From Thiobacillus denitrificans (GTDB lineage: Bacteria > Pseudomonadota > Gammaproteobacteria > Burkholderiales > Thiobacillaceae): DNA of 64,000 nucleotides. Positions 11,888 to 41,454 of the stretch are shown here, in pieces. Location: the NCBI GenBank assembly GCA_020723405.1, contig DYIY01000003.1:1-64000 (forward strand), given 5' to 3'. The notes under the pieces are model-generated. The model made no database searches and was not told where the DNA came from. It worked only from the letters and a program-made list of their open reading frames with translations. Made by a program: the position numbers and the translations under genes. Within the stretch, counting starts at the first letter, position 1; each line of letters opens with the position of its first letter.

Positions 11888-11918
11888 TTGCTCCCGTGGC
11901 TGCTGGGCGACCGTCTGA

Positions 11919-11954: not shown

Positions 11955-11982
11955 CCCCGGGGTGGCCAGGGCAGGGCCCGTC

Positions 11983-13026: not shown

Positions 13027-13084
13027 GGGGAATTCTTCACTGGGATTGCCACCCCACCGCCGTCGGCGATGGGGTGGTGGGGGC

Positions 13085-14368: not shown

Positions 14369-14447
14369 TGCGACTCCCGAGAAAATAAGCGGTGACATTC
14401 TACCGATGAAAGCCCATGGCATGATGGCGGCCTTGACGGAGGACACC

Positions 14448-15239
14448 ATGGGCACGGTGCTGACAACCTTTCTGTTAACGGCGTGGTTCGCCGTTTCATT
14501 GAGCGGATTTTGTCCCGCCGCGCGGGCCGATATCGTCGAATTGCTGCCGCGCATCAAGTCCTCCGTGGTGGGGGTGGGCTCCCAGCATCCCCTGCGCAAT
14601 CCCCGCGCCAGGCTGACCGGGACGGGGTTTGTGGTGGGGGACGGCCGGCACGTGATTACGAATGCCCATGTGCCGCCCAACGACATGGAAGAGGACAAGG
14701 GCGAGCACCTGGCCGTGTTCCTGCGCGGCCCTACCGGCGTGGACACCCGGCGGGCGGAAAAGGTGGCCGCCGACCCGGACCACGACCTGCTCCTCCTGAA
14801 AATTGAGGGGGACCCTGTCCCCGCCCTGTCCCTGAGCCAGGCCGACCAGGCCCGGGAAGGCCAGCTCTACTATTTCACCGGTTACCCCATCGGCGCCGCC
14901 CTGGGCCTCTACCCCGCCACCCACCGGGCAGGCCTGGCCGCCATCGCCCCGGTCTTCTCCCCCTTGCCCGGCGCCCGGAAGCTCACCGCCAATCTTATCA
15001 AGCGGGCCGACACCCCCTTCCTGATCTACCAACTGGACGCCACTGCCTACCCGGGCAACAGCGGCAGTCCCCTCTACGACGGTGACAGCGGCCAGGTCAT
15101 CGGCGTGATCAACGCGGTGTACGTGAAGGGAGCCAAGGAGAACGTGCTGAGCAATCCCAGCGGGATCAGTTATGCGATTCCGGTGCGGTATGTCAGGGAG
15201 TTGCTGGGGAAGGAGGCTGTGACCAACCACGTCCGGTAA
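14448..15239 (+). CDS. Secreted trypsin-like serine protease (DegP-type catalytic domain, no PDZ)
   Basis: A 263-residue protein with a signal peptide (about residues 1-26, ending PAARA) and a single chymotrypsin-fold protease domain. The catalytic triad is readable: His in ITNAHV, Asp in DPDHDLLLLKI and Ser in YPGNSGSPLY. No PDZ domain follows, unlike DegP or DegS. I chose the ATG at 14448 because GGAGGA lies just upstream and the signal peptide starts directly after it. It is divergent from tviB (79 bases). Its substrate is unknown; a link to the nearby glycan genes is only positional. Confidence 0.85.
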   Translation: MGTVLTTFLLTAWFAVSLSGFCPAARADIVELLPRIKSSVVGVGSQHPLRNPRARLTGTGFVVGDGRHVITNAHVPPNDMEEDKGEHLAVFLRGPTGVDTRRAEKVAADPDHDLLLLKIEGDPVPALSLSQADQAREGQLYYFTGYPIGAALGLYPATHRAGLAAIAPVFSPLPGARKLTANLIKRADTPFLIYQLDATAYPGNSGSPLYDGDSGQVIGVINAVYVKGAKENVLSNPSGISYAIPVRYVRELLGKEAVTNHVR

Positions 15240-15605: not shown

Positions 15606-16529
15606 TTAAGCGCACGGTCTTTCTTTGTCAGCATTTTTTTTCCAGGGTGCTGCTCCGTGCCATTTTAGGCGAATGGTTCGGCTGACCAAGGAGGCTAAAT
15701 CCGATATCATGTTTCGCCGCTGAATAATGAAGACGGAGCCGCAGCAAATAATCGCCAATAACTTGTTGTGCATGCTAAGGGGTGATTGAAGAACGGCCCG
15801 GATGTACTCGAAAGGAATGCGCCAATGCGGACAAAATCTGTGCCTACGGTTGGGAAAAAGCACAGAGAAGTAACGTTTTAGTCTTTGATCAGTCGTTTCC
15901 GGCTCACGCACCAATCTTCTGAACCAAGTTGTTTCCGGCACAACTATGAAATAGCCGCGCAATGCAAGTTCGCCTAGCAGTACGGCTCCATTTCCAATTA
16001 TCAGTAAATTTGTGCGGCATTGGCGAAGTGTGGATAGCCTGTACATGCCGTATAAAGCATGCTGGTTTCCCCACAGAGTAATGTTGAAACGTGCCAATGG
16101 GCTCAATCCAGACGTATCTAGAAAGGATACCGCCCGGTCCTGACGCTGTCCCCGTTCATCCACCCAGACTGTGCGTCCATATGCTAGGACTGCCTGATCT
16201 TCGGTCTCCAATGCGGCGACCAGGTGTTCCAAATAGTTGTCGGACCAAAGGTCGTGCGCCCCGGCCAGGACGAAATATTGTCCTTGCGCTTGCTCAACCA
16301 GGGTGTGGAAATTCAGAATGGCCCCAATATTTCTACTCTGGCGGAAGTGCCTAACCCGGGGATCAGTCCGCGCGTATCGCTGCGCGATCTCCGGTGTACT
16401 GTCATCGGAGGCGTTATCTGCGATGATGACCTCGTAATCCTGATACCCCTGTCTCAGGATCGAATCCAGAGTTGAGACAAGATGAGCTTCCTCGTTGTAG
16501 GCCATGACTCCAACGGTTACGGTCGGCAT
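15606..16529 (-). CDS. Glycosyltransferase family 2
   Basis: A 307-residue GT-A fold glycosyltransferase, last gene of the long minus-strand glycan operon. The N terminus shows the GT2 nucleotide-sugar site: VGVMAYNEEAHL, then VIIADNASDDSTPEI. The usual DxD triplet is replaced by AGAHDLWSDNYL, as in many rhamnosyl- or uncharacterised GT2 enzymes. A hydrophobic segment near residues 255-275 suggests membrane association. It starts 14 bases after the flippase stop. Donor and acceptor cannot be told from sequence. Confidence 0.88.
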   Translation of the reverse strand: MPTVTVGVMAYNEEAHLVSTLDSILRQGYQDYEVIIADNASDDSTPEIAQRYARTDPRVRHFRQSRNIGAILNFHTLVEQAQGQYFVLAGAHDLWSDNYLEHLVAALETEDQAVLAYGRTVWVDERGQRQDRAVSFLDTSGLSPLARFNITLWGNQHALYGMYRLSTLRQCRTNLLIIGNGAVLLGELALRGYFIVVPETTWFRRLVREPETTDQRLKRYFSVLFPNRRHRFCPHWRIPFEYIRAVLQSPLSMHNKLLAIICCGSVFIIQRRNMISDLASLVSRTIRLKWHGAAPWKKNADKERPCA

Positions 16530-16543
16530 TTTTTACCTCAGAT

Positions 16544-17977
16544 TCATCCGGCTCGAGTTGAATGCAAAGGCCATGCCCTCAACAGTACGGCAGAGAGCAC
16601 GACAAACAAGGCAGATTTGGCCAGCAAGGCAGTCCAGTCGCCACCCATGGATTGGGAGATTGCGTAATGTCCTGCTACGCCAAGCAGAAAAATCATGGTC
16701 GGCCGGAACAGCCGCACGAGAGGAAATGCATCGATGTGCAGGATGTGCCGCACGACGAACCAAGCAATGAAGACCATCAACAAAAATGAGACAAGAGTTG
16801 TGTAGGCAGCTGCCTCATAACCGAATACTGGTAGCAACCACAAATTGAGTCCCCAGTTCGACACGGCACCGATCAAGGCAATTATGGATACATGCCACAT
16901 TCGCTTTGAATACGACACCTCGCGCAGGTATATTTTGTATACTGAATTGAAGACGTAGCCAATAACAATGATAGGAATGATCGGCAGCGCTTCCTGAAAG
17001 GCTCTGCTCGCCAGAATCTGCAACAACTCCTGGCTGAAGCAGATCAGGCCCAGCGCGAAACTCAATGTGATACGGAAGTTAAAATCAGACAAATCATCTG
17101 CCTTGCCTCGTTCGCCTGAATTAAGATGTTTGAACCAATAGGGCACAAGAGCAGAATGTAGCGCCGTACTGGCCATGTCGAGCAACATGCCCACATTGTA
17201 GGCGAGGCTGTAAAGGCCCGCCTCCGCCGGGCCGATCATTTTGTTGATCATGATCCTGTCCAGTTGCCCCAGCACGATGTTGCCTAAGGAATAGAACACC
17301 AGAGGCAGGGAGTAAACGGCCATGTAGTTGAAGTGTTCCTTGCAGGGTTCCCAGTGCGCTTGTCTTGCCAGCGTGAGCAGCACCCAGATGGCAACTATGC
17401 CAAAGGCAATTGTGCTTCCAAGTATCGGACCAAGATGGCGTTCTGAAGCCAGAAAAAATAGCAACCCCACCCCAAGGGTTACCCCGCCATAGCCCCGTAA
17501 AACCGAGACAACAAAAAGGACCTTGCTTTTCTGAGTGGCGACGCATTGCGCATGAAACACGTTGAAGATCGCTGCGAACAGGATGGCCGGATACAGCAGG
17601 TAGACCATTTCGCTGGTGATGCCCAGACCTTTTGCCACAATGATCGTAAAAGGCAGTGTCGCCATGGCGGCCATGGCAACAGTGCCAACGGTGAGAAACA
17701 ATATGCTACCCATGAATCCGGAATCGTGGCCATCGGCTTCCAGGGTTCGGCGTGTGACGGAGGAAGCCACGTTCATCGTAAACAGAACGGCACCGATCGC
17801 TACATAGCTATTGAAAATCTGGTAAAGCCCATACTCGCCGGGAACCAGCAGGCGAGTGAATATCGGGATTGAGATCAAATGCAGAAATGCCAGTGCCGCA
17901 TGTGACGAAAAGTAGTTCAGGGCGTGGCGAAGAACGGCCCCCCGTCCGGACGGGGGGGGCTCTTGTTTTATGGTCAT
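16544..17977 (-). CDS. Polysaccharide flippase (Wzx-like, MOP superfamily)
   Basis: A 477-residue inner-membrane protein with about 12-14 hydrophobic segments. It has the family's N-terminal pattern (LNYFSSHAALAFLHLISIPIFTRLLVPGEYGLYQ) and the GPAEAGLYSLAYNV repeat of the second half. Such proteins flip undecaprenyl-linked oligosaccharides to the periplasm. In this locus it would deliver the glycan to the PglL/Wzy-like ligase at 39.6 kb. An eight-base C run lies at codons 7-9, but runs of this length also occur in unrelated genes here. Confidence 0.9.
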   Translation of the reverse strand: MTIKQEPPPSGRGAVLRHALNYFSSHAALAFLHLISIPIFTRLLVPGEYGLYQIFNSYVAIGAVLFTMNVASSVTRRTLEADGHDSGFMGSILFLTVGTVAMAAMATLPFTIIVAKGLGITSEMVYLLYPAILFAAIFNVFHAQCVATQKSKVLFVVSVLRGYGGVTLGVGLLFFLASERHLGPILGSTIAFGIVAIWVLLTLARQAHWEPCKEHFNYMAVYSLPLVFYSLGNIVLGQLDRIMINKMIGPAEAGLYSLAYNVGMLLDMASTALHSALVPYWFKHLNSGERGKADDLSDFNFRITLSFALGLICFSQELLQILASRAFQEALPIIPIIVIGYVFNSVYKIYLREVSYSKRMWHVSIIALIGAVSNWGLNLWLLPVFGYEAAAYTTLVSFLLMVFIAWFVVRHILHIDAFPLVRLFRPTMIFLLGVAGHYAISQSMGGDWTALLAKSALFVVLSAVLLRAWPLHSTRAG

Positions 17978-18017
17978 GGAAGCGGGCTGATGGAGAATGG
18001 GTGTTATTGCTTCCTGT

Positions 18018-18797
18018 TCAGCGGATTCGCTTGAGGAATCCCTCTGGAGCCACTGTTATCAGAAGCTTGTGTTGAATGCTTTTGTCAATTTCGAACTCTG
18101 GATGATTTTTCAGGTATTCGCTTACTGCGGTTTTTGGGTTGTTTCCAGGTCCCCAAGGTCGGTCTTGAAACATGCCACTTGGCATATCTTCGATGATGGT
18201 ATCGAAGACGACGCAATAACTCCCCTGGGAGACAAGCGGTGCATAAGCATCAAGCTCTCCCAGGACATGCTCGTGGGTATGGTTGGAATCCAGGCAGACG
18301 AGCACCCGGTTGAAGCCCTTGGCTACCCGCCTCACCTCCTCGACAACTTCCAGAGCGACGCTGGAGCCCTGGATCATCTGGATCCGGGAAGCCATGGGGT
18401 GGGCTTCTATGGCTGCCCGGTTGTGGGAGCGGATGTCGATATCGATACCCAGCACCTTGCGACTGGATTTCATGGGATTAATCGTTGCCCCCTTTTCGAT
18501 CGCTTCCGCCATGTCGAGCAACGCAAGCATCGAAGCGCTGAAGATGATAGAACCACCATGGGCGATCCCGGTTTCGATGATCAAATCCGGCTTGATTGCC
18601 CAGATCAACTCCTGCATGGCCCAGGCATCGTTGGGGAATTGAATCGCAGGCCTGCCCAGCCAGGAAAAATTATAGGCCCATTTGTGTGGGCTGATTTCAC
18701 GTATCCAGATGCGTGATAGAGCCTGCAAATCGAGATCTCGCCCCAATGTCTCGATATTCTCGTTCACTTCCGCACGGAATTGCTCAGTGGGGTTCAT
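18018..18797 (-). CDS. CmcI-like (cephalosporin hydroxylase family) SAM-dependent enzyme
   Basis: A 259-residue protein of the CmcI family, whose founder acts in cephamycin C synthesis and which has a class I methyltransferase fold. The SAM/active-site regions are LIIETGIAHGGSIIFSAS and KVLGIDIDIRSHNR, followed by VLVCLDSNHTHEHV and a C-terminal VFDTIIEDMP. In glycan loci these proteins are thought to be O-methyltransferases or related modifying enzymes, but the reaction is not established. I use the ATG at 18797 (GGAGG ten bases upstream); a TTG further up is in frame but weaker. It overlaps the WbqC-like gene by 14 bases. Confidence 0.85.
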   Translation of the reverse strand: MNPTEQFRAEVNENIETLGRDLDLQALSRIWIREISPHKWAYNFSWLGRPAIQFPNDAWAMQELIWAIKPDLIIETGIAHGGSIIFSASMLALLDMAEAIEKGATINPMKSSRKVLGIDIDIRSHNRAAIEAHPMASRIQMIQGSSVALEVVEEVRRVAKGFNRVLVCLDSNHTHEHVLGELDAYAPLVSQGSYCVVFDTIIEDMPSGMFQDRPWGPGNNPKTAVSEYLKNHPEFEIDKSIQHKLLITVAPEGFLKRIR

Positions 18798-19533
18798 CCG
18801 CGAAATCCCTCCAGTCAATTGATGTTGAGCGAATTACTTGAATACCCTCGCGCCCACGGTTGGCTACGAGATCAAGAGCCGTGACATAGGGAGTGAACTC
18901 GCTGTGGAGTTGAGGATATGGTATGTACTGGTAGTCCATATACTGCACGGCGATGCCCGATTTTTCGAAAAGGTAATGGTCCAGGTAATTGCGTGCCCCG
19001 TGACCCGTTATATAGACGTTGCCTCCCAGCGTTTTGACAATATCATGTAGGCGCTGACTGCTGCTCCCTGAAATACCAAGTGTGCCGGAATCCAGAAAGT
19101 GACAGCCATCTGTCAACCCGAAGTAATCTGCCATTACCAGAATGGATGCCTTGGATACGTCCGCCAAGGTCGTCGCAGGTTGCTCGAATACACGATCCAT
19201 CAAAGCCAGCATTTCATCCCGAAAGCGCGCTGTGACATAGGCCTGTCGCAGGATGTCCCGATGTTGGCTGCGCCAGTCAGACCGATCATCGATATACACT
19301 TCATTGATCTTCTGACCCCGATGCAGGTCTCTGATCGGTACGGTTATCCATTTCATTCCATGAGCGGTTTTGATCTGCACACGGTTAAAAAAGCCGCGCG
19401 TGTACTGAACATCATCGTAATGAACAAAAATATCAGCCAGTCGCACTTGTTCTAGCAGGCCGACCCATGGGAAATACATCGACTGTGAAATGACAATTTT
19501 TCCGATTTTTCGGGGGGGCATCAACGCAACCAT
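18784..19533 (-). CDS. WbqC-like family protein
   Basis: A 249-residue member of the WbqC family (named after an O-antigen cluster gene), whose biochemical role is not settled. Family hallmarks are the N-terminal ISQSMYFPWVGLLEQV, HYDDVQYTRGFFNRVQIKT, the WITVPI strand and the central SKASILVMADYFGL. A conserved GHGARNYLD segment lies near residue 190. It overlaps both neighbours, the formyltransferase and the CmcI-like gene, so the three are probably translated together. The ATG at 19533 has GAGGG six bases upstream; another ATG at 19521 touches the upstream stop. Confidence 0.85.
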   Translation of the reverse strand: MVALMPPRKIGKIVISQSMYFPWVGLLEQVRLADIFVHYDDVQYTRGFFNRVQIKTAHGMKWITVPIRDLHRGQKINEVYIDDRSDWRSQHRDILRQAYVTARFRDEMLALMDRVFEQPATTLADVSKASILVMADYFGLTDGCHFLDSGTLGISGSSSQRLHDIVKTLGGNVYITGHGARNYLDHYLFEKSGIAVQYMDYQYIPYPQLHSEFTPYVTALDLVANRGREGIQVIRSTSIDWRDFADEPH

Positions 19534-20207
19534 TCGATGCCCTCATTTCTCAGAAACTTATTGAAAGCTTCTGCGAGTCGCTGGTCTTGCAAGGCGGGGT
19601 TGGCCCAGGAGAGTATGGGAAGAACCGAGGCTGAAACATCATGGTCAATGAGTGTTGCAAGTGCGTCGTGTTCGGCCAGTTCCCACAGCACCAGGAGTAG
19701 ATACAGTTTCTGGGCAAATGAAAGTCGCTCAAGCAATTGAACCGACGCGCCGTGTGGAATAGGTGCAATCACCTGCCCCAGAATCGGGCCTGCATCCGAT
19801 GACTCATCGGTCAGATGAGCCGTGGCCCCCATGAAGCGGGATCCGCTTTCCAAAGTTCTGCGCACTGCACCAAATCCTGGGAAAGCCGGGAGAATCGATG
19901 GATGGATGTTCAGACAGATACCCCGCGCGAACAGATCGGATGACACCAGCCTCGAGAAAAACAGGCAGGTCCAATCCACCTGGTGCTTATCGAACAGCCA
20001 AGCGGCAGCTTGGCGACTGAAACCTTCGCGAGTTGGGTCCTCTATCCGCCGCCATTCAATCCCCAGGCGCTCACACTCGTTTTCCACGCCGCAAGGCCGA
20101 TCGGTAACGACCACTGTGACAGGCCTGTATCCGCATTCTCGCAGCAAGTCCATGGCGGCAACGAATACAGCGCCACCACTCGAACAAACAATCCCCAGAC
20201 GCGTCAT
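19521..20207 (-). CDS. Formyltransferase (PurN/sugar N-formyltransferase type)
   Basis: A 228-residue enzyme with the formyltransferase fold that uses N10-formyltetrahydrofolate. The catalytic triad can be placed at Asn100 and His102 (LNIHPSILPAFPG) and Asp138 (SSDAGPILGQ). It is far shorter than Fmt and is embedded in a nucleotide-sugar operon one gene away from a DegT aminotransferase, so a sugar N-formyltransferase acting on an amino sugar is more likely than a purine enzyme. That assignment is inference from context. It abuts the methyltransferase gene with a one-base overlap. Confidence 0.82.
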   Translation of the reverse strand: MTRLGIVCSSGGAVFVAAMDLLRECGYRPVTVVVTDRPCGVENECERLGIEWRRIEDPTREGFSRQAAAWLFDKHQVDWTCLFFSRLVSSDLFARGICLNIHPSILPAFPGFGAVRRTLESGSRFMGATAHLTDESSDAGPILGQVIAPIPHGASVQLLERLSFAQKLYLLLVLWELAEHDALATLIDHDVSASVLPILSWANPALQDQRLAEAFNKFLRNEGIEWLR

Positions 20208-20890
20208 CAGCCTGTGGACTTGCGATGAGCCCCATACCCCAACCCCGGGGCATCTTCACGATAGAGGTATAGGGTGTATTCAAACATTGGATAAGCATGG
20301 TCCATGCGTATGCGGGGGGTTAATTCTGTCATGCACCATGCCAACAACTCGACGGGGTTTCGGTAATAAAGATTTTGTGCCATGAAATTGACGTGAGTGG
20401 TCATCGTGTTGAAGGCGATGCCTATGTTGCACAGCGAAAACATCTTGGTAACCAAGGCCTTCGCGTATTCATCCATCTGGCGAATTGAAGCATCCAGTTT
20501 TTGGGTCAGTATTCCATTGCAAACGACATAGTCATAATTTTCCGTCGCATCCAGTTTCAGGATATCGCCGGTTGACCATCGTGCATTGGGGAATTTCTCC
20601 CTGGCGGCCTGAATCATGGGCTCGCACAGATCAATGCCGTGATAATCGACAGACATACGGCGCTCATGGATCAGGTCAAGTAAGCTGCCATAACCACACC
20701 CCACATCCAATAGGGACAGTGGATTGCGGTGGGGCATGCCTAACTCTGTCACGGCCAACATCCGGTCCAATCTCATGCGGTGATCGTCTGGGTTAACGCC
20801 CCAATCCACTCCCTCTGGCCTCTGGCCATGGCTCGCGAACGTACGGGAATAGTGTTCGCCCAGCGACCGGCTGATCTCATCTACACTCAA
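20207..20890 (-). CDS. Class I SAM-dependent methyltransferase
   Basis: A 227-residue methyltransferase with a clear SAM-binding motif I (LSLLDVGCGYGSLLDLI, about residues 58-74), an acidic residue at the end of strand 2 (YHGIDL) and motif IV-like DYVVCNGILTQ. Substrate is not evident. By position between the aminotransferase and the formyltransferase it may methylate the CDP-sugar or the finished glycan. It overlaps the DegT gene by four bases (ATGA). Confidence 0.85.
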   Translation of the reverse strand: MSVDEISRSLGEHYSRTFASHGQRPEGVDWGVNPDDHRMRLDRMLAVTELGMPHRNPLSLLDVGCGYGSLLDLIHERRMSVDYHGIDLCEPMIQAAREKFPNARWSTGDILKLDATENYDYVVCNGILTQKLDASIRQMDEYAKALVTKMFSLCNIGIAFNTMTTHVNFMAQNLYYRNPVELLAWCMTELTPRIRMDHAYPMFEYTLYLYREDAPGLGYGAHRKSTG

Positions 20891-22005
20891 TATTCTCTCC
20901 CACGTTGCATGCTCTCATATATCACCTTGCAAACCCGATTGATATCAGCGATGCTCATGTCGTGATAACTGGGCAAATTACAGGCGCGGAGATATATGCC
21001 ATAGGAGACTTGGTGTTCAATCTGAGCATCGAACATGGGCAATGAGGATAATGGCCAGAAGAAAACGCGGCCATCAATCCCTTCTTTCCTGAATAAAGCC
21101 AGAAGATGATCTCGATCGAAGGGTACGCCTTCATCAACAACGATGGTGGGCATCCAATAGCCATTCACTGTATCAATCTTCTCTGGATTCATGCGAAGGG
21201 GCAAATCCTTCAATCCCTCTCTGTAGCCCAAAAAGATGTTGCGCTTCGCATGGATCAATTCGTCAATACGCTCAATTTGGGCACACCCGATGGCAGCCTG
21301 GATGTTCGACATCTTGTACTTGAATCCCAACATGTCCGGCCAGAACTGCTTGGTCTGCCCCCGAGCACGTCCATGGTTGCTCAGGGTGAGGACATGTTCG
21401 TACAGATCCGGATCATTGGTGACAAACATCCCGCCTTCCCCGGTCGTCAGCGTTTTGGTGCCGTGGAAGGAAAACGTGCCGAACCTACCCATGGAACCGG
21501 CCCGCTTGTCATGGTAGATAGAGCCAATAGCCTCCGCCGCATCTTCGATGACCGGGATACCATGCTTATCACCAATCGCCAGGAGTTGATCCATTTCGCA
21601 CAGGTTACCGTAGAGGTGCACGGCGACGATGGCCCTGGTGCGCGGGGTAATGGCCGCCTCGGCCAACTCCGGGTTGATGCACCATGTGTCCGGCAGGATG
21701 TCGACAAAAACCGGCTTGGCCCCCAGGTAGGTGATGGGGGCCGCACTGGCGATCCAGTTTGTCTCCGCCAGGATCACTTCGTCGCCCGGTCCGACCCCTA
21801 ACGCGGCCAGTCCCATGTGCAGCGCCCCGCTGCAACTGGAGGTGGCGATGGCATAGTGCACGCCCAAGTGCTGTTTGAACGACTCCTCGAAACGGTTGAT
21901 GTATTCATGACAGCGCTCGCCCCAGCCGTTGCGCGCAGCGTCGGTGGCGTACTCGACTTCCTTTTCGGTAATCGAGGGTTTGGTGTAGAGGATGCGGTTC
22001 TTCAT
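20887..22005 (-). CDS. DegT/DnrJ/EryC1/StrS sugar aminotransferase
   Basis: A 372-residue PLP enzyme that converts a keto group on a nucleotide sugar to an amine, with glutamate as usual donor. The PLP lysine lies in SFHGTKTLTTGEGG, and VIEDAAEAIGS holds the aspartate that contacts the pyridine nitrogen. It resembles 4-aminotransferases of the perosamine-synthase type (NGWGERCHEYINRFEESF). The catalytic Lys rules out an RfbH-type 3-dehydrase. Given RfbF/RfbG upstream, the likely substrate is a CDP-4-keto-6-deoxyhexose, with the product then N-formylated. It overlaps both flanking genes by four bases. Confidence 0.9.
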   Translation of the reverse strand: MKNRILYTKPSITEKEVEYATDAARNGWGERCHEYINRFEESFKQHLGVHYAIATSSCSGALHMGLAALGVGPGDEVILAETNWIASAAPITYLGAKPVFVDILPDTWCINPELAEAAITPRTRAIVAVHLYGNLCEMDQLLAIGDKHGIPVIEDAAEAIGSIYHDKRAGSMGRFGTFSFHGTKTLTTGEGGMFVTNDPDLYEHVLTLSNHGRARGQTKQFWPDMLGFKYKMSNIQAAIGCAQIERIDELIHAKRNIFLGYREGLKDLPLRMNPEKIDTVNGYWMPTIVVDEGVPFDRDHLLALFRKEGIDGRVFFWPLSSLPMFDAQIEHQVSYGIYLRACNLPSYHDMSIADINRVCKVIYESMQRGREY

Positions 22006-23228
22006 GTCACTTCCAGTCGCGACACCGCCGTCACGAAACTGCCACCCCAGGCCCGGATGTAGACCAACTGCTGCATGATTTCAGCCTTGATGTTCCATGG
22101 CAGGATAACGACGAAATCAGGCCTCTCTTCCCTTAGCCTGGCCTCATCCACGATGGGGATGCGGCTGCCTGGCATGTATTTTCCCTGCTTGGCGGGATTG
22201 CGGTCCACCACGAACGGGATCAGATCGGGGCGTATGCCTGCGTAGTTCATCAGAGTGTTGCCCTTGGCGGCCGCGCCGTAGGCTGCCACGCGTTTCCCCT
22301 GCCGCTTGCATTCCAGCAGGAACAGCAGGAAGTCGTCCTTTACCTGGTCGATTCTGGCCTGGAGACCGGCGTAGTAAGCAGCCCTGTTCATGCCGCGCCG
22401 GGCTTCCTCCGCCAACACACGGTCTACCCGCGGCTCGCGCATGTGCCGGCCGGAATCTGCGCGCTGGGCGAATATGCGCAAGCTGCCGCCATGGGTGGGC
22501 AACTCCTCGACGTCGAACACAGCCAGCCCGTTTACGGCAAAGATGCCCTCGACAGCCGTCAGCGACAGATAGGAAAAGTGCTCATGGTAGATGGTATCGA
22601 ACTGGGTTTCCTCGATCAGCCGCATGAGATGGGGAAACTCGAAGGTGGCTACGCCTTGGGGCTTGAGCAGTAGGGCGAAGCCTGCGACGAAGTCGTTGAT
22701 GTCAGGGACGTGGGCGAGCACGTTGTTCGCTGTCGTCAGGTCGGCCTGCTTGCTCTGGGCCACCAGTTCCCGGGCCAGCCGCACTCCGAAGAAATCCTCC
22801 ACGATCGGGATGCCCTTGGCACGGGCAGCAGCGGCAGCGCTCGCGGCGGGTTCCACGCCAGTACAGGGGATACCGCGTGCCTTGACGTATTGCAACAGGT
22901 AGCCGTCGTTGGCGGCGATCTCGATCACGTGGCTGTCTTTGGTCAGGCCGAGACGGGCTGTCATTTCTCCAACGTAGCGCTCGCTATGGGCCAGCCAGCT
23001 GCTGGAGAAACCGCTGAAGTAGGCATAGTCAGCATCGAACAGATCGGCTGCCTGGGTGAAATCCTCGGTTTGTGCCAGCCAGCAGCGTTCGCATACCAGG
23101 ACGCGCAGGGGGAACCATTTTTCCGGGGCATGCAGGGTTTGCCCGGTCAGGTAGGCATTGGAGGGAGGGGCGCTGCCCAGATCCACGAGTGGCAGCCTGA
23201 GTTCGGCGCCGCAATGACGACACTTCAT
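22002..23228 (-). CDS. Sugar C-methyltransferase (NovU/TylC3-type three-domain)
   Basis: A 408-residue enzyme with the three domains of sugar C-methyltransferases. There is an N-terminal zinc-binding part (CRHCGA near residue 3 and CERC near residue 48), a SAM domain (HVIEIAANDGYLLQYV, then TTANNVLAHVPDINDF) and a C-terminal domain (VAAYGAAAKGNTLMNY, then FVVDRNPAKQGKYMPGSRIPI). Known members add a methyl to C3 or C5 of 4-keto-6-deoxy nucleotide sugars. It sits directly after the RmlC-like epimerase, overlapping by four bases. ATG at 23228; longer open frame upstream is the epimerase gene read in another frame. Confidence 0.88.
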   Translation of the reverse strand: MKCRHCGAELRLPLVDLGSAPPSNAYLTGQTLHAPEKWFPLRVLVCERCWLAQTEDFTQAADLFDADYAYFSGFSSSWLAHSERYVGEMTARLGLTKDSHVIEIAANDGYLLQYVKARGIPCTGVEPAASAAAAARAKGIPIVEDFFGVRLARELVAQSKQADLTTANNVLAHVPDINDFVAGFALLLKPQGVATFEFPHLMRLIEETQFDTIYHEHFSYLSLTAVEGIFAVNGLAVFDVEELPTHGGSLRIFAQRADSGRHMREPRVDRVLAEEARRGMNRAAYYAGLQARIDQVKDDFLLFLLECKRQGKRVAAYGAAAKGNTLMNYAGIRPDLIPFVVDRNPAKQGKYMPGSRIPIVDEARLREERPDFVVILPWNIKAEIMQQLVYIRAWGGSFVTAVSRLEVT

Positions 23229-23788
23229 GGTGTGTTGCCGGAAAAGTCGCTGCTCACGAACGGGTGCGCGGCATCCTTCAGTGACAAGCCGGAAACCGGC
23301 AGGGGCCAGCGGATGCCCAGCCGGGGGTCTTCGGCATGCAGGCCGGCTTCGGCGGCCGGCTGGTAAACGGCGGTGTGGAAATACAGCAGCTCGCAGTCGT
23401 CGCTGAGGGTCTGGAATCCATGGGCGAAGCCCTCCGGGATGACCAGTGTCTTGTGGTTGTCGGCACTGAGCAGCTCGGCGTGCCATTGCAGGAAGGTGGG
23501 AGAATCGGCGCGGACGTCAACGGCGACATCGAATACCTCCCCCCACAGGCAGCTCACGAACTTGGTCTCGGCATGAGGCGACTTCTGGAAATGCATGCCG
23601 CGCACGGTGCCTCGCCTGGCCGTCAGGGTGTGGTTGATCTGGGCGATCTGCCTGCTGGAAACCAGGGACTGCAATTCATCCATGCAGAACATTCGCTCCA
23701 GGTAGCCCCGGTTGTCACCGATGGGTTTGCGCTGCAGGACCTGCAGACCGGCGATCGGGGTGGCAAGGAGGTCGAAACGGGTGTTCAT
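23225..23788 (-). CDS. RmlC-like nucleotide-sugar 3,5-epimerase family protein
   Basis: A 187-residue cupin of the dTDP-4-dehydrorhamnose 3,5-epimerase family. Readable features are the N-terminal DNRGYLERMF, the RGMHFQKSPHAETK segment with the catalytic His and Lys, VDVRADSPTF, and PEGFAHGFQTL. In this operon it most likely acts on a CDP-4-keto-6-deoxyhexose rather than a dTDP sugar. It may be a mono-epimerase working before C-methylation; that is inference. ATG at 23788 overlaps the rfbG stop (ATGA). Confidence 0.88.
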   Translation of the reverse strand: MNTRFDLLATPIAGLQVLQRKPIGDNRGYLERMFCMDELQSLVSSRQIAQINHTLTARRGTVRGMHFQKSPHAETKFVSCLWGEVFDVAVDVRADSPTFLQWHAELLSADNHKTLVIPEGFAHGFQTLSDDCELLYFHTAVYQPAAEAGLHAEDPRLGIRWPLPVSGLSLKDAAHPFVSSDFSGNTP

Positions 23789-24855
23789 GCCTGCTTGGTT
23801 GCCACTTCGTATTCGTGAATTTGTCGCAGGCTGACTTCGGACATGTCCTGGCCGCTCCTCCAGGCCTGATGCCAGGCCAACGTCATGGCGAGGGCAGTCT
23901 CCAGATGCCAGCGTGGCCGCCAGCCCAGCTCGGCCTTGGCCTTGGCGCTGTCCAGCTTGAGGGTGTGCGCCTCGTGGGGCTGGGGCACGGCGTCGCAGCG
24001 CCATGCCGCGCCAGATACCTGGCTGCATAAGGTCTCGACGATCCATTGCACCGTCCGGGAATCGTTCTCCTCGGGGCCGAAGTTCCATGGCGCCGCGAAG
24101 GCCGGGCCTTTCGTGCAGAGCCTCTCGGCCAACATGAGATAGCCCAATAGCGGTTCCAGAACATGCTGCCAGGGACGCGTGGCGAGGGGGGAGCGGATAG
24201 CGAGGGGCTGGCCCGCATCCAGGGCGCGCAAGAAATCCGGTAGCAGCCGGTCGGCGGCCCAGTCCCCGCCGCCGATGACATTGCCGGCGCGCACGGTGGC
24301 GGCATGGATCCCGGCAGGCTCCAGATACGACCTGCGATATGCGGCAGTGACCAGCTCCGCACAGCCTTTGCTGCTCGCATAGGGGTCGAAACCGCCCATG
24401 GCCTCGTTTTCCCGGTAGGGCCAGACCCATTCCCGGTTTTCGTAGCACTTGTCGGATGTGACGTTGACCACTGCCTTCACACCACCTGTTTTTCGCACGG
24501 CCTCCAGGAAGTGCACCGTGCCCATGACGTTGACGGCGTAGGTTTCCACCGGCGCCGCGTAGGAATGGAGCACCAGTGACTGGGCGGCCAGGTGAAACAC
24601 CACCTCGGGACGAGCGGATTGCATGGCGCGGGTCAGCGCAGTTTCGTCGCGGATATCGGCAATCGTACTGCTGGCCAGACGGCTGTGTAGATCTGTGACC
24701 GTGAAGAAGTTGGGGTCGGTGGGCGGGTTCAGCGCAAAGCCATGCACTTCGGCTCCCATGTCGGCCAGCCACAGCGCCAGCCATCCCCCCTTGAATCCGG
24801 TATGGCCGGTGAGGAATACCCGCTTGCGCTGCCAGAAGGCCCGGTTCAAGTCCAT
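23785..24855 (-). CDS. rfbG: CDP-glucose 4,6-dehydratase
   Basis: A 356-residue SDR enzyme that turns CDP-glucose into CDP-4-keto-6-deoxyglucose. The NAD loop is LTGHTGFKGGWLALWL, followed by VFHLAAQSLV, VTSDKCYENREW, and the Tyr/Lys pair in DPYASSKGCAELV. The GNVIGGGDWAADRLLPDF stretch is highly typical of RfbG. Start taken at the ATG at 24855, which overlaps rfbF by ten bases and gives the usual family length; an in-frame GTG lies 30 bases earlier. Confidence 0.95.
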   Translation of the reverse strand: MDLNRAFWQRKRVFLTGHTGFKGGWLALWLADMGAEVHGFALNPPTDPNFFTVTDLHSRLASSTIADIRDETALTRAMQSARPEVVFHLAAQSLVLHSYAAPVETYAVNVMGTVHFLEAVRKTGGVKAVVNVTSDKCYENREWVWPYRENEAMGGFDPYASSKGCAELVTAAYRRSYLEPAGIHAATVRAGNVIGGGDWAADRLLPDFLRALDAGQPLAIRSPLATRPWQHVLEPLLGYLMLAERLCTKGPAFAAPWNFGPEENDSRTVQWIVETLCSQVSGAAWRCDAVPQPHEAHTLKLDSAKAKAELGWRPRWHLETALAMTLAWHQAWRSGQDMSEVSLRQIHEYEVATKQA

Positions 24856-25619
24856 ATCTTCCAGGGTGCCCTGCCTGAAGCCCACAGGTCTTCCAGCAGG
24901 TTCTTTTCACGCAGGGTGTCCATGGGTTGCCAGAAACCCAGGTGCGAGAACGCCATGAGCTGATCCTGCTCGGCCAGGCGCGCCAGGGTTTGACCTTCCC
25001 AACTGGTTTCATCACCCGGGATCAAGTCAAGGCAGCGCGGCGAAAGTACAAAAAAACCGCCATTGATCAGGCCGCCGTCGCCGCGTGGTTTTTCCGTGAA
25101 GCCGGATACCATGTCGCCGTACATCTCCAGGGCGCCATAGCGCCCTGGAGGCTGCACCGCTGTAACGGTGGCCCATTTGCCGTGCCGGCGGTGAAAGGCG
25201 ATTTCGGCGGAAATGTCGATATCGGCGATGCCGTCTCCGTAGGTAAAGCAGAAGCAATCCTCGCCACTCAAGTAGTCGGCAACCCTTTTCAGGCGCCCGC
25301 CGGTGAGGGTGTCCTCGCCGGTGTCGACCAGGGTGACGCGCCACGGCTCCGCCTTGTGCTGATGGACTTCCATCCGGTTGTCTGCCATGTCGAAAGTGAC
25401 ATCCGACATGTGCAGGAAGTAGTTGGCGAAATATTCCTTGATGAGATAGCCCTTGTAGCCACAGCAGATGATGAATTCGTTCACACCGTGCGAGGAGTAG
25501 ATCTTCATGATGTGCCACAGGATCGGTCGGCCGCCGATCTCGATCATGGGCTTGGGCTTGAGGTGGGTTTCCTCGGCGATACGTGTGCCCAGCCCGCCAG
25601 CCAGAATCACCGCTTTCAA
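24846..25619 (-). CDS. rfbF: Glucose-1-phosphate cytidylyltransferase
   Basis: A 257-residue nucleotidyltransferase that makes CDP-glucose from glucose-1-phosphate and CTP, the entry step of the CDP-sugar branch. The N-terminal signature VILAGGLGTRIAEET with KPKPMIEIGG is diagnostic, as are the FTYGDGIADID and INGGFFVL segments. The start codon is TTG at 25619, overlapping the stop of the preceding aminotransferase gene (TTGA), which favours translational coupling. Confidence 0.95.
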   Translation of the reverse strand: MKAVILAGGLGTRIAEETHLKPKPMIEIGGRPILWHIMKIYSSHGVNEFIICCGYKGYLIKEYFANYFLHMSDVTFDMADNRMEVHQHKAEPWRVTLVDTGEDTLTGGRLKRVADYLSGEDCFCFTYGDGIADIDISAEIAFHRRHGKWATVTAVQPPGRYGALEMYGDMVSGFTEKPRGDGGLINGGFFVLSPRCLDLIPGDETSWEGQTLARLAEQDQLMAFSHLGFWQPMDTLREKNLLEDLWASGRAPWKIWT

Positions 25620-26735
25620 TCTGTCCTCCCCTCTGCCAGATTCTGTGCTTTCGCACCGACCAATGATGCTACGACAGTGTGGATATCCCGCTCGGCCAGG
25701 TCGGCGCCCATGGGCAGGCTCATCACTCGTGACGCCGCGAGGTCGGCAACTGGAGTCGAACGCTCAGGGCATGAAGCACGATAGGCCGGTTGTCGATTCA
25801 GGGGCGCAGGGTAGTGAACGGCGGTGGGTATTCCGGCCTGTTCGAGCAGGTGCCGAGCCCTTTCCCGTTCATCGATGAAAACGGTGTACTGAGCGAACAC
25901 GCTGGTCCTATCCGAACGCTGGCGAACGCGAGGAATACCTGTATCGTCCATCAACCTGTTGTACTGCCCCCCCCTTATGAATGCGCTGGTCTAGTTCCCA
26001 GTCGAACCGCTCCAATTTAGCCAGCACAATGGCGCATTGCAGCGTGTCCATTCGTCCCCCGACCCCTATGCGCGTGTGGTGGTAGCGCCGTTCCTGCCCA
26101 TGAACGCGAATCACGCGCATGGTTTTGGCCAGGGCGTCATCACTGGTGAAGATGGCGCCACCATCGCCGTAGCAGCCCAGGGGCTTGCTGGGAAAGAAGC
26201 TGGTGCAGCCGATGGTGGAAAGATTGCAGCTCTTGCGGCCCATGTATACCGCGCCGAAGCTCTGGGCCCCATCCTCGATTACCGGCAGGCCATGCCGGGC
26301 TGCAATGGCGTTGATCTCGTCCATGTCCGCCGGCTGCCCATAGAGGCTCACCGGCATGATGGCCCGGGTCTTGGGGGTGATGGCCGCCTCGATCAGCCGT
26401 GCATCGATGTTGCAGGTATCCGGTTCGATATCCACGAAAACGGGTGTTGCGCCCAACAGGGCGATGACCTCCGCGGTGGCGACGAAAGTGAAGGGGGTGG
26501 TGATCACCTCGTCGCCCGCCTTGATGCCCAGGGCCAGGAGGGAGATGAGCAGGGCCTCCGTGCCGGATGCGACAGTGATGCAATGGGAAGCACCGGTGTA
26601 GGCCGCCAGTTTCTCCTCCAGCTCTCCGACCTCGGGCCCCATGATGTACTGGCCGTGCTCGAGCACCCGCTCGATCCGGCTGTGGATGGATTCCTTCAGC
26701 TCGTGGTATTGGGTCCTGAGATCAATGAATTCCAT
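25616..26735 (-). pseudogene. wbpE: Sugar 3-aminotransferase (WbpE/WlbC family), frameshifted at an eight-G run
   Basis: Two overlapping frames together encode a full DegT-family aminotransferase of the WbpE/WlbC type, which makes UDP-3-amino-GlcNAcA from the 3-keto sugar. The first part (26735 to about 25967) runs from MEFIDLRTQYHEL to the PLP-lysine loop FFPSKPLGCYGDGG and LERFDWELDQRI. The second part (from about 25966) continues with DDTGIPRVRQRS, AQYTVFID and AVHYPAPLNRQPAY. The frame breaks exactly at a run of eight G on the coding strand (25967-25974); seven G would restore it. This may be a real null allele, a slippage switch or a sequencing error. WbpE function would be lost as written. 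Confidence 0.85.
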
Positions 26736-26743
26736 GGCGAGCT

Positions 26744-27319
26744 TCAAAGGGGGCGACATTCCTTTTCGGTCATCTCATAGCGGGTGCCGCAGGCCGCGCA
26801 GTCGAACAGACCCACCGAATCCGGCAGGCGTGTGCCGCATTGGCACATCCACCCGGCCCGGCGGGCGGGCACGCCCAGCATCAGAGCATAGGGTACAACA
26901 TCTGAAGTCACCACCGCCCCTGCGCCAATGAAGGCATATTCACCCAGGGTGTGGCCGCACAGGATGGTGGCGTTGGCACCGATACTGACACCCTGCTTCA
27001 CCAGCGTTGCCCTGTATTCATGTTTGCGCGGCACGTGGGAGCGGGGATTGATGACGTTGGTGAACACCATGCTGGGGCCGCAGAACACGTCATTTTCCAG
27101 GGTCACGTCGTCGTATATGGACACATTGTTCTGGACCCGCACGTTATTGCCGATCACCACCCGGTTGCCGACGAAGACGTTCTGGCCAAAGGAGCACCGC
27201 TCGCCGATCACCGCGCCGGCGCAGATGTGCACCCAATGCCAGACATGGGTGCCGGCGCCGATGCGTGCGCCCTCGTCCACGATGGCAGTGGCGTGGATAA
27301 AGACTTCGGGTTGATCCAT
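26744..27319 (-). CDS. wbpD: UDP-2-acetamido-3-amino-2,3-dideoxyglucuronate N-acetyltransferase (WbpD/WlbB)
   Basis: A 191-residue left-handed beta-helix acetyltransferase with clear hexapeptide repeats ([42 protein letters not shown]). The [12 protein letters not shown] and [24 protein letters not shown] segments are typical of the WbpD family. The C terminus adds CQCGTRLP and CAACGTRYE, a small putative zinc ribbon found in some members. It starts one base inside the wbpB stop (TGATG). It would act last in making UDP-2,3-diacetamido-2,3-dideoxy-glucuronate. Confidence 0.93.
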
Positions 27320-28386
27320 CAGTACTCCAGGGGCAGGGCGACGCGGCGCGCGTCGCGGGCCGAGCGGTACATGGCGATCAGCACCTCCAGGGAGCGCAGG
27401 CCTTCCCGTCCATCCGTGTCAGGCGCAGCTTCGCCCCGCAATACCTTGATCACATTGTCGTAATAGCGGGGGTGACCATACCCGTAAACGGAGGTAGTGG
27501 CATAGCTGGCATCCTTGACCAGTTCGTCATCCGGGTCGGGATCCATGAATTCCCAATGCTGAATGTCATTCACCGCCACCCCGCCCACCCGAACGGTGCC
27601 CTTTTCACCGATGATGGTGATGGATCCCTCCAGGTTCTTCGGGTAGGTGAGCATGGTGACATTGACGCTCCCCATGGCGCCGGAACGCCATTTGATCAGG
27701 GCCACGCCACTGTCTTCCACCTCGATGTTTCGTGCCAGGGTGGCTGTATAGGCATGCACGCTTTCCACGGGGCCGATCAGCCAGTCCAGCAAATCCACGT
27801 AGTGGCTGGCCTGGTTCATGAATGCGCCACCGTCGAATTCCCAGGTGCCGCGCCAGTCATCGCTGTCGTAATAGTCCTGGGGACGCGTCCAGAAGACGTT
27901 GATGGTCACCATGTAAACCCGGCCGAAGCGTTTTTTGTCCATGGCCCGCTTGAGCAATTGCAAGGTGGCGTTCTGCCGGTTCTGCTTGACCACGAACAGA
28001 TGGACCCCGGCCGCATCGCAGCTCTGTACCATGCGCTTGCCATCCTGCCAGCGGGTCGCCATGGGCTTCTCGGTCATGATATGCCTGCCGTTGGCGGCAA
28101 TCTGTATGGTTTGCTCCGCATGCAGACCACTGGGCGTGGCTATGGCCACCAGATCCGCCTGGGTGTTGTGTAGCATGTCGGTGAGCTGGGCAAAGCCTTC
28201 TGCACCTGTCTGGGATACCGCCTGGGCCAATCTGTCCGGGGCGTTGTCGCAGACCCCCACGAGTTCCAGATTTTGGCGATGCTGGGCGATGGCCCCCAAA
28301 TGATTCCGAGCGATGCGGCCGCAGCCAAGCAATGCAACGCGAATTTTACGATCTACGATCGGAGGAATTTGTCTGCTCGTCTTCAT
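27319..28386 (-). CDS. wbpB: UDP-GlcNAc(A) 3-dehydrogenase (WbpB/WlbA)
   Basis: A 355-residue Gfo/Idh/MocA oxidoreductase that oxidises C3 of UDP-GlcNAcA in the WbpB-WbpE-WbpD route. The Rossmann loop [18 protein letters not shown] lies near residue 17, the EKPMATRW motif holds the catalytic Lys, and the [24 protein letters not shown] segment is family-typical. The ATG at 28386 overlaps the stop of a tiny upstream frame, and no Shine-Dalgarno is obvious. It opens the recognised part of the minus-strand operon; substrate would come from TviB at 13-14 kb. Confidence 0.93.
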
Positions 28387-28825
28387 AGGTTCAGTCTGGG
28401 CTTGATGTCATCACGGGCAATCATAAGGCTCTGGCTGGTCGCAACAGTAATCCGGGCCAGATATTTGATGGTTCTTGGCGAAACCGAGCGGGTAGTACGG
28501 CCCACCAGGGGCAGGGTGTGCTGCTCCCACATGACAAAGGCTGTCATGGAACCATGTGCGCCCTTTCCAGCCGGTGAGCATCTCCCTTGTCCTGTTTGCA
28601 GGTGCTGCATCCGGCGCAAGCCTTACGAATCCGGGCGTTGGCGTCGTCCGCCACTGTCTGGTGTGACGCAGCGACAGGACACTTGGGTAGCGTTTTCCCA
28701 GGAGACGGTTTGCTAGGGGCGGCTAGAATCTGTGACTTGAGTGCGAGCACGGCATGGCTGATGTGGCCATGGAGGTCCAGCCTGTCCGGCGGTGGTGACC
28801 ACACATCGATTCCATCCGGGTTCAT
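28383..28825 (-). other. Two possible small ORFs upstream of wbpB
   Basis: A 93-codon frame (28544-28825) with a CAGCSTC cysteine cluster ends in an ATGA overlap with a 54-codon frame (28383-28547). That frame in turn ends in an ATGA overlap with wbpB. The chain of overlaps is what real coupled genes look like, but neither product resembles anything I recognise, and no ribosome binding site supports the first start. They may be remnants of a truncated gene or chance frames. Confidence 0.25.
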
Positions 28826-28901
28826 TGCGCCAACTGTTGCGCTTGAGTTGTACTAATGGCCCAGGTGAAGGATTGGGGTAAATGGAGGGCTTTTGAATTG
28901 A
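28826..28901. other. Spacer between divergent glycan operons
   Basis: The short stretch between the candidate small ORFs and the sulfotransferase gene should hold the start signals for the plus-strand operon. I see no hexamer pair good enough to call a promoter. Confidence 0.4.
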
Positions 28902-29870
28902 ATGCCGTTTCTTAGTGAATTCGAGATTTGCGGCGCCCTGCCAAGGATGCAATCAATGACCATTGGATCTCCGTTTGATCATTTTCTGGCCAGTGTCCGT
29001 CTTGTTGCCGACTATATTGTTACCAATCCACCCGGCTTTTCCCTGGAGCGCCTCAAGGCCTTTGTTGTCCCCGGCAATAGAAGCCCAGGAGCGGATGGGC
29101 AGATCGATGTGTTTTTCTGTCTTTCCACGGGGCGTGTCGGAACTAAAACCCTCGCTGCTCTGCTTGCAACGTCACCGGACTTGCTCGTTCGCCATGAGCC
29201 TCGTCCGCTTCTCTTTGGCTTGTCCAAAGCAGCGTACATGAGTCCCGAAATTCTCGAAACCGAGTTTGCTGGATTTGCATTTCAGGCAGCCAGGTCTGAC
29301 ATTATTCATCATGCCGGCAAGATTGGCCGCGCCTACGTGGAGACCAGTCCCCATGCCACGTTTTTGTCGCCACTCATTGCACGTGCATTACCCGGTGCAA
29401 AATTCATTCATCTAGTCCGCAATCCTGCAGATGTTGTTCGTTCAGGGATGCGTAGGCGTTGGTATCAAGGTCATCCGGCAGATCATACGCGTATCCAGCC
29501 TCAAGTCGGTAGTGATGATGCAGTTTCATGGGAAAATTGGAGCCCATTCCAAAAAAATTGCTGGCTCTGGTCGGAGACAAACCAATGGATTCTTGACTTC
29601 ACCGGCAAGTTGCCAGCGGAGCGTACCTTGTTGATGAAATCGGAGGATATATATAGCGCAGACCCGATTGCCCTCGGGCAGTTGCAGAATTTCATTGGTT
29701 TGCCTGACTTGGCTGGATCGCGCGTGACCGGGATTCTGAAGCGGCCTCTGAATGTTCAAAGGGATGGGGACTTTCCTTTCTATGATCACTGGGCCGATGA
29801 AGAAAAAAGGAGTTTTGCTGAAATGGTGGGTGTTGTTGCGGGCCGGCTTGGGTATCGGATTGGTGGCTAA
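28902..29870 (+). CDS. PAPS-dependent sulfotransferase family protein
   Basis: A 322-residue protein with the two PAPS-binding regions of sulfotransferases. A 5'-phosphosulfate loop variant lies near residue 75 (FFCLSTGRVGTKTLAALL), and the 3'-phosphate site appears as FIHLVRNPADVVRSGMRRRW near residue 170. It opens the plus-strand glycan operon and may add sulfate to a sugar or lipid carrier. The start is uncertain. ATG 28902 is 12 bases from GGAGGG, and ATG 28956 has a better spaced AAGGA; the latter gives a 304-residue protein that keeps all motifs. Base composition is lower in GC than the genome flanks. Confidence 0.78.
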   Translation: MPFLSEFEICGALPRMQSMTIGSPFDHFLASVRLVADYIVTNPPGFSLERLKAFVVPGNRSPGADGQIDVFFCLSTGRVGTKTLAALLATSPDLLVRHEPRPLLFGLSKAAYMSPEILETEFAGFAFQAARSDIIHHAGKIGRAYVETSPHATFLSPLIARALPGAKFIHLVRNPADVVRSGMRRRWYQGHPADHTRIQPQVGSDDAVSWENWSPFQKNCWLWSETNQWILDFTGKLPAERTLLMKSEDIYSADPIALGQLQNFIGLPDLAGSRVTGILKRPLNVQRDGDFPFYDHWADEEKRSFAEMVGVVAGRLGYRIGG

Positions 29871-29934
29871 TTGATGAATCGGGGCAAATGGGGGTTGTCA
29901 ATTTCATTTTTGGCAAATTGGGCAAGTGGACGGT

Positions 29935-31326: not shown

Positions 31327-31355
31327 GACATTGCCAAGTCATTGCCGCAGGAAGA

Positions 31356-41446: not shown

Positions 41447-41454
41447 CGGGTCAT

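Follow-up and report, generated by a model that had tools for sequence, protein, structure and literature searches.

Background

Kansosamine is 4-amino-4,6-dideoxy-3-C-methyl-2-O-methyl-mannose, and cereose and cillose are likewise 3-C-methyl sugars. Fucose and an N-acyl-kansosamine have been described as the sugars unique to Mycobacterium kansasii (PMC4403928), the title of a reference cited in PMC6268951 gives 4-formamido-3-C-methyl-2-O-methyl-L-mannose for M. avium serovar 14, and pathways to cytidine diphosphate (CDP)-linked cereose and cillose are known from Bacillus cereus (Li et al. 2017, via PMC7725333). Kansosamine is scarcely named in the open-access literature searched; its synthesis is not worked out in the part of PMC4403928 consulted, and cereose and cillose too are seldom named in the open-access literature searched. 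Here we analyze an operon at positions 15606-28386 of a 64,000-nucleotide stretch of Thiobacillus denitrificans DNA (contig DYIY01000003.1; the whole stretch is hereafter called the window). On balance we expect this operon to make a CDP-linked, kansosamine-type branched amino sugar whose amine is capped in two steps, a reading built on gene content, a structural model and analogy with described systems.

Among the systems that bear on the capping steps, bacillithiol synthase (BshC) couples cysteine to the amine of an amino sugar, and PurN transfers a formyl group to a glycyl amide carried by an amino-sugar phosphate. WbkC is a guanosine diphosphate (GDP)-perosamine N-formyltransferase. A 4-amino-4-deoxyquinovose (Qui4N) bearing an N-acetylglycyl group has been attributed to the Escherichia coli O121 O-antigen (PMC3210612).

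A conserved core for a probable CDP-linked 3-C-methyl-4-amino sugar

The operon contains a set of five adjoining genes, rfbF, rfbG, an rmlC-like epimerase gene, a C-methyltransferase (CMT) gene and the aminotransferase gene DegT2, whose products very probably deliver a CDP-3-C-methyl-4-amino sugar. All genes of the operon lie on the minus strand and are read from 28386 down to 15606; those from rfbF onward are the following:

24846..25619, minus strand: RfbF, glucose-1-phosphate cytidylyltransferase, with a TTG start (TIGR02623, 467.8 bits against a cut-off of 300.25)
23785..24855, minus strand: RfbG, CDP-glucose 4,6-dehydratase, with an ATG start at 24855 (TIGR02622, 486.1 bits against a cut-off of 278.45)
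23225..23788, minus strand: RmlC-like 3,5-epimerase (1dzr, 2.4e-39)
22002..23228, minus strand: CMT, NovU/TylC3-type 3-C-methyltransferase (PF08484, PF08421; D-mycarose 3-C-methyltransferase PDB 4rv9, 2.8e-65)
20887..22005, minus strand: DegT2, perosamine-synthetase-like 4-aminotransferase with lysine K184 (PF01041, 406 bits; 3bn1, 3.4e-79)
20207..20890, minus strand: S-adenosylmethionine (SAM)-dependent methyltransferase, slot type c26 (PF13649 and others; weak CalS10/BamL similarity)
19521..20207, minus strand: PurN-like formyltransferase with triad N100/H102/D138 (PF00551; glycinamide ribonucleotide (GAR) transformylases, 1.4e-18)
18784..19533, minus strand: WbqC, proposed to be a BshC-like ligase that aminoacylates the 4-amino group (PF08889, 212.7 bits; fold likeness to BshC 4wbd)
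18018..18818, minus strand: CmcI/rhamnosyl O-methyltransferase family protein, proposed sugar (2-)O-methyltransferase (PF04989, 330.7 bits)
16544..17977, minus strand: Wzx-type polysaccharide flippase (PF01943)
15606..16529, minus strand: GT2 glycosyltransferase (PF00535)

Each successive gene pair from rfbF through CmcI shares 1 to 35 bases, and gaps of 40 and 14 bases precede the flippase and GT2 genes, respectively. An earlier sequence-only reading of this region had named rfbF, rfbG, the epimerase, the CMT, a DegT aminotransferase with its lysine, the SAM methyltransferase and the formyltransferase as overlapping genes of one operon, and all of these are borne out. Its gene list was nonetheless incomplete, since seven more genes in the range went unnamed, namely those for the downstream WbqC and CmcI, the flippase and GT2, and for a Gfo/Idh/MocA dehydrogenase, a hexapeptide acyltransferase and a second aminotransferase, DegT1, which are described further below.

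RfbF and RfbG both exceed the cut-offs of their curated models, which places them in the families that produce CDP-4-keto-6-deoxyglucose. The epimerase retains, in its alignment with 1dzr, all of what we take to be the catalytic residues of RmlC (His, Lys, Tyr and Asp). The CMT combines Methyltransf_13 and Methyltransf_14 domains with similarity to characterized enzymes and thereby belongs with the sugar 3-C-methyltransferases of the TylC3/NovU/TcaB9 type. The nearest solved relatives of DegT2 are perosamine synthetases, which places it with the 4-aminotransferases, although it passes no NCBIfam equivalog cut-off; K184, presumably the pyridoxal phosphate lysine, is invariant in the alignment. 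Given the retained lysine and these nearest relatives, DegT2 should aminate rather than dehydrate. A 3,6-dideoxyhexose route of the E1/RfbH kind was considered and rejected, as DegT2 keeps K184 and scores 176 bits against 423 for RfbH.

To examine the conservation of the core we assembled 82 loci, comprising the best 80 of 383 DegT2 relatives in named bacterial genomes and two close orthologue loci; these were picked by DegT2 similarity and hence do not constitute a random sample. The close orthologues, at 70-74% identity, were recovered from three of 60 other genomes of the genus, family and order (L016 and L017, which were added to the set, and L025, which was already among the 80). At all three the order is RfbG, RmlC, CMT, DegT2, another gene and CmcI, with RfbF present where the contig extends that far. 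When the same gene set was sought across the collection, RfbF, RfbG, RmlC and CMT were all found by DegT2 in 60 of the 69 loci whose upstream sequence extends for 4.2 kb or more (singly 64, 61, 67 and 64, respectively). The first gene upstream of DegT2, no more than 150 bases away, is CMT in 56 of the 75 loci for which 1.5 kb or more of upstream sequence was available; in 74/82 loci CMT lies upstream at a distance of up to 2.5 kb. CmcI is found within 9 kb of DegT2, on either strand, in 62 of the 71 loci with at least 5 kb downstream. Judged by record title, the carriers include Pseudomonadota, cyanobacteria, Nitrospira, Chlorobiaceae and mycobacteria, and metagenome bins are numerous among them. 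That the five core genes form one predicted CDP pathway rather than a chance collection is thus well supported, and the earlier proposal that CDP activation, C-methylation and 4-amination belong to a single pathway gains good support from this linkage in distant bacteria and from the lipooligosaccharide locus of the M. kansasii type considered next.

Relationship to kansosamine and the mycobacterial loci

Matches to DegT2 at 68-71% identity occur in seven of 248 Mycobacterium genomes, with three more at 44-46%. In M. attenuatum (L077) and M. innocens (L087), which we take to be relatives of M. kansasii, and in two further loci (L109 and L113), the core adjoins a polyketide synthase (PKS) gene: an epimerase and a GT2 gene on the opposite strand precede the core, and DegT2 is followed by genes for an ATP-grasp protein, an epimerase-like protein, a TylF-like methyltransferase, another methyltransferase and the PKS. 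Table 1 of PMC4403928 gives the M. kansasii lipooligosaccharide cluster, in corresponding order, as glycosyltransferase, epimerase/dehydratase, glycosyltransferase, cytidylyltransferase, epimerase/dehydratase, rhamnose epimerase, methyltransferase and PKS. Nothing is entered in that table from the rhamnose epimerase (27450) to the methyltransferase (27475), and it is into this interval that the CMT, DegT2, ATP-grasp and epimerase-like genes would fall, the correspondence with the MKAN numbers resting on gene order and function. The relatives of M. kansasii share the rfbF-rfbG-rmlC-CMT-DegT2 core in a lipooligosaccharide-type locus, whereas the genes behind DegT2 differ, being the ATP-grasp, NAD-epimerase-like and TylF-like methyltransferase genes in mycobacteria as against the SAM methyltransferase, PurN-like formyltransferase, WbqC and CmcI genes in the window.

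Each feature of kansosamine has a matching gene in the window, with one gene each for the CDP-linked 6-deoxy-4-keto intermediate, 3,5-epimerization, the 3-C-methyl group, the 4-amino group and the O-methyl group, the likely O-methyltransferase being CmcI. From this gene content and the mycobacterial loci we infer that the operon product is a CDP-kansosamine-type sugar, which would share its 3-C-methyl, 4-amino-4,6-dideoxy and 2-O-methyl pattern with N-acyl-kansosamine and with the sugar of M. avium serovar 14. The sequence-only reading had regarded a C-methylated, N-formylated CDP sugar as unusual, but in view of the serovar 14 sugar and of CDP-cereose and CDP-cillose the sugar type is less so than claimed. 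The latter pathways resemble the present one in their CDP carrier and in the 3-C-methyl group; they end in 4-reduction, where the window operon has a 4-aminotransferase in the place of the reductase.

In a separate Mycobacterium locus (L111:8294-10203) DegT2 is followed, on the opposite strand, by a canonical sugar N-formyltransferase with 39% identity to that of L015, near GT2 and epimerase genes resembling those of the lipooligosaccharide loci; judged by its genes, this locus is a candidate producer of N-formyl-kansosamine.

A variable slot between DegT2 and CmcI

In contrast to the core, the contents of the slot between DegT2 and CmcI vary among loci. They include a NeuD-like acyltransferase, which fills the slot in G374 and G372, two genomes that share their genus with the window; a canonical sugar N-formyltransferase; a combination of PhyH, methyltransferase, GNAT and WbqC genes; an ATP-grasp protein accompanied by an epimerase-like protein and a methyltransferase; AMP-binding, LuxE-like and LuxC-like proteins; and further types, with one or two representatives serving to name each family. 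On the DegT2 tree, slot type needs at least 40 changes for 81 labelled rows (possible minimum 6, shuffled mean 48.3), counts that are rough, as the tree of 90 proteins is weakly resolved with 16 of 87 inner branches starred. Such variability would be expected of a core that supplies a 4-amino sugar whose cap depends on the slot.

Five loci carry genes for AMP-binding and LuxC-like proteins in the slot (L074, at 11061-14864, L052, L060, L076 and L081), four of them with a LuxE-like protein also; these names derive from L074, and such proteins are unexpected behind a sugar aminotransferase. Slot proteins of cluster c13, 207-236 amino acids long (e.g. L082:11094-11798), lie directly behind DegT2 in four loci and farther downstream in the five AMP-binding loci. 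The one tested has no Pfam match and they appear GNAT-like by eye, so that c13 is possibly an undescribed N-acyltransferase family.

WbqC and its formyltransferase partner

The Asn-His-Asp triad at 100, 102 and 138 that had been noted in the window formyltransferase aligns with that of PurN and is kept in all five rows of the alignment, the window included. GAR transformylases occupy the top seven rows of its structural neighbors and the top 15 rows of a further match list. Nevertheless, it scores only 64.3 bits against the cut-off of 150.1 of the PurN model TIGR00639. It also differs from the canonical sugar N-formyltransferases: the triad is shared, but their kinship and C-terminal dimerization domain are not, N_formyltrans_C (PF18216) being absent at E <= 0.001, while the L015 enzyme has it. 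For the canonical slot enzymes, the nearest solved chains are Rv3404c and other formyltransferases.

The two kinds of formyltransferase also keep different company. WbqC stands beside the PurN-like type in 3/3 loci of the set and likewise in the window and the distant L132 cluster (5/5), and beside the canonical type in none of nine slot loci (Fisher p = 0.0014 for four of four, with the window counted and L132 left out, against 0/9). In L132 the whole set of SAM methyltransferase, formyltransferase, WbqC and CmcI genes recurs at 34-51% identity. Moreover, in L058 the PurN-like formyltransferase takes the position that a GNAT of cluster c10 holds in the PhyH-methyltransferase-GNAT-WbqC-CmcI loci, and that GNAT is accompanied by WbqC in 12 of 12 cases; formyl and acetyl transfer hence look like alternatives on an acceptor made by WbqC. 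Of the earlier proposal of sugar N-formylation, the formyltransferase and its triad therefore stand, whereas direct formylation of the 4-amine loses ground, given that the enzyme is PurN-like and pairs with WbqC while the canonical type does so in none of its nine loci.

WbqC itself is a clear member of its family (PF08889, gathering score 21.3). Its model has a mean predicted local distance difference test score of 92.3, and the first-ranked VIA-align match is BshC 4wbd (Z 15.0, 229 of 249 residues, root-mean-square deviation 3.3; next row 8.3), a likeness of fold and not a sign of membership. BshC couples an amino acid to the amine of an amino sugar, which is the kind of reaction proposed here for WbqC. 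No sequence similarity between BshC and WbqC was detectable in the searches made, and the BshC chain has 540 residues. A second analogy comes from E. coli O121, where the gene order is rfbB-rfbA-DegT-WbqC-GNAT and where WbqC has 27% identity to the window protein over 214 residues. As the other genes of the O121 cluster are annotated with other likely roles, WbqC is the best candidate for adding the glycine of the N-acetylglycyl group and the GNAT for acetylating it. The O121 module, which Shigella dysenteriae 7 presumably carries as well, agrees with the window in having DegT followed by WbqC and an N-acyl-transferring enzyme; it differs in its deoxythymidine diphosphate (dTDP) route, in having a GNAT instead of a formyltransferase and in having no C-methyltransferase annotated in the cluster. 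Fold and analogy together suggest that WbqC is probably an aminoacyl ligase.

More widely, when WbqC loci from a phylum sample were ranked, 22 of the best 30 had a DegT-like match within 1.5 kb, although one family dominates and similarities are mostly weak. A blastn search with a Methylobacter WbqC gene found no match in E. coli genomes. The open-access titles naming WbqC suggest, as far as titles go, no study of its function; the open-access literature searched contained no paper with both WbqC and BshC and yielded nothing relevant on formyl-aminoacyl sugars.

Proposed pathway and alternatives

Starting from the observed linkage of the core genes, we propose the following pathway, each reaction of which is a prediction. 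RfbF and RfbG would convert glucose-1-phosphate to CDP-4-keto-6-deoxyglucose, the RmlC-like enzyme would epimerize it towards the L series, the CMT would add the 3-C-methyl group, and DegT2 would place an amino group on C4. WbqC would then ligate glycine or a similar amino acid to the 4-amine, and the amino group of this residue would in turn be formylated by the PurN-like formyltransferase. An O-methyl group is likely to come from CmcI, at position 2 as in kansosamine, the extra SAM methyltransferase may add another methyl, and Wzx and GT2 would incorporate the sugar into a surface polysaccharide. Should the sole amine of the sugar be acylated by WbqC, only the amine of the amino acid would be left for the formyltransferase, a placement of the formyl group that we consider somewhat better than even; as PurN formylates a glycyl amide on an amino-sugar phosphate, WbqC and the formyltransferase would together carry out the same kind of chemistry on a CDP-linked sugar.

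Alternatively, the formyltransferase might act directly on the 4-amine to give CDP-N-formyl-kansosamine (4-formamido-4,6-dideoxy-3-C-methyl-2-O-methyl-mannose), WbqC doing something else. This is the very sugar named for M. avium serovar 14 in the title cited in PMC6268951, the triad is intact, canonical sugar N-formyltransferases fill the slot in 9/82 cassettes and occur also in the mycobacterial L111, and WbkC is an example of a rather PurN-like enzyme that works on a sugar amine. WbkC shares with the window enzyme the Formyl_trans_N fold and, by PDB names, a place in 4-amino-4,6-dideoxyhexose metabolism; it differs in acting directly on the sugar amine and in having no known WbqC partner. 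Direct formylation, however, leaves WbqC without a role, despite its presence in 5/5 cases with the PurN-like type and its absence in 9/9 with the canonical one, and we regard it as the less likely course, though the most serious competitor. Far less probable is a division into two pathways, in which RfbF, RfbG, RmlC and CMT would make a CDP-3-C-methyl-6-deoxyhexose of the cereose or cillose type while DegT2, the formyltransferase and WbqC serve another nucleotide sugar. Routes to CDP-cereose and CDP-cillose are indeed on record (PMC7725333), and the solved relatives nearest to DegT2, the perosamine synthetases, are GDP enzymes; yet family-model scans recognized no 4-ketoreductase among the operon genes, and the adjacency of CMT and DegT2 reported above (56/75 loci, or 74/82 within 2.5 kb) spans several phyla. 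Most improbable of all is a formyltransferase that works on a non-sugar substrate in purine or folate housekeeping and sits in the operon by chance. GAR transformylases are what it matches best in both sequence and structure, but it falls far short of the PurN cut-off, the stretch corresponding to the phosphate-binding motif of PurN is changed, the genome has matches to three further genes of this kind at other sites, and the same four-gene set recurs in the distant L132.

Several observations weigh against the two-step capping of a CDP-kansosamine-type sugar that we favor. The PurN-like cases number only five, with L065 (Frateuria) and L069 (Dyella) being related; RfbF and RfbG were not seen in the L058 DNA examined, and the L132 match to RfbG is at 31%. 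Deformylases and Fmt closely trail GAR transformylase among the structural neighbors of the formyltransferase, and WbkC, a sugar-amine enzyme, is itself fairly PurN-like (7.5e-5; 4.7e-9). A phylum profile search returned nine more formyltransferase matches (L123-L131) near which no other pathway seed, WbqC included, matched; these are probably ordinary PurN. Slot types overlap, with WbqC found also with NeuD (L024) and with ATP-grasp (L035 and L094), and in L091 the PhyH and methyltransferase genes stand some kilobases from WbqC. CmcI was not seen at the four mycobacterial loci L077, L087, L109 and L113. The likeness of WbqC to BshC comes from structural re-alignment only, Foldseek with the WbqC model having given no match at E <= 0.001, and sequence search linked no solved structure to WbqC, with no BshC chain in a PDB hmmsearch to E 10. 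Finally, the SAM methyltransferase has no clear role, its similarity to CalS10 and BamL-type enzymes being weak.

If correct, the proposal would provide a genetic route to kansosamine-type sugars via CDP rather than dTDP or GDP, give WbqC (PF08889) a testable job, explain why it pairs with a formyltransferase in some loci and an acetyltransferase in others, and make surface-sugar caps predictable from sequence in many bacteria. We see about an even chance that these loci represent a widespread CDP-kansosamine line with a conserved core and swapped cap genes, in the WbqC branch of which an amino acid would be ligated and then N-formylated, N-acetylated or methylated. On this view the WbqC/PurN-like pair of the window would echo, on a nucleotide sugar, the glycyl amide and formyl steps of early purine synthesis.

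Neighboring genes and base composition

Three genes precede rfbF in the operon:

27319..28386, minus strand: Gfo/Idh/MocA dehydrogenase (PF02894/PF01408), of a separate set, probably for a uridine diphosphate (UDP)-3-amino sugar
26744..27319, minus strand: hexapeptide N-acyltransferase (PF00132; NeuD/PglB/VioB subfamily below cut-off), of the same separate set
25616..26759, minus strand: DegT1, of the separate set, with its frame broken at an 8-G run (25974-25967) into an N-terminal part at 25908-26759 and a C-terminal part, in another frame, at 25616-25954

We take a Gfo dehydrogenase, a hexapeptide acyltransferase and a DegT1 to be the usual 3-amino-sugar set. A UDPG/GDPM-type dehydrogenase gene (13085-14746) and an epimerase gene (11983-13026) lie on the same strand as these genes, and the five look like a separate UDP-3-amino-uronic-acid pathway. 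A role of the three genes in making the CDP sugar was considered and rejected, because in that sugar C3 should be the methylated carbon and a dehydrogenase gene of the UDP-sugar type is nearby. The split in DegT1 may reflect slippage, an assembly error or a broken gene; the L056 homologue (19242-20318) is a single, stop-free frame.

The G+C content is 0.59-0.64 from the Gfo gene through CMT as against 0.50-0.56 from DegT2 through GT2, and this step between CMT and DegT2 fits a mosaic origin of the operon. In 2-kb steps, positions 16001-34000 have a G+C content of 0.52-0.62 compared to 0.60-0.74 elsewhere in the window, which suggests imported surface-polysaccharide genes. Past the operon, on the plus strand (28902-31326), are genes for a Sulfotransfer_3 protein and a DUF7033 protein, followed by glycosyltransferase genes, and a Wzy_C/Wzy_C_2 ligase or polymerase is encoded at 39638-41527.

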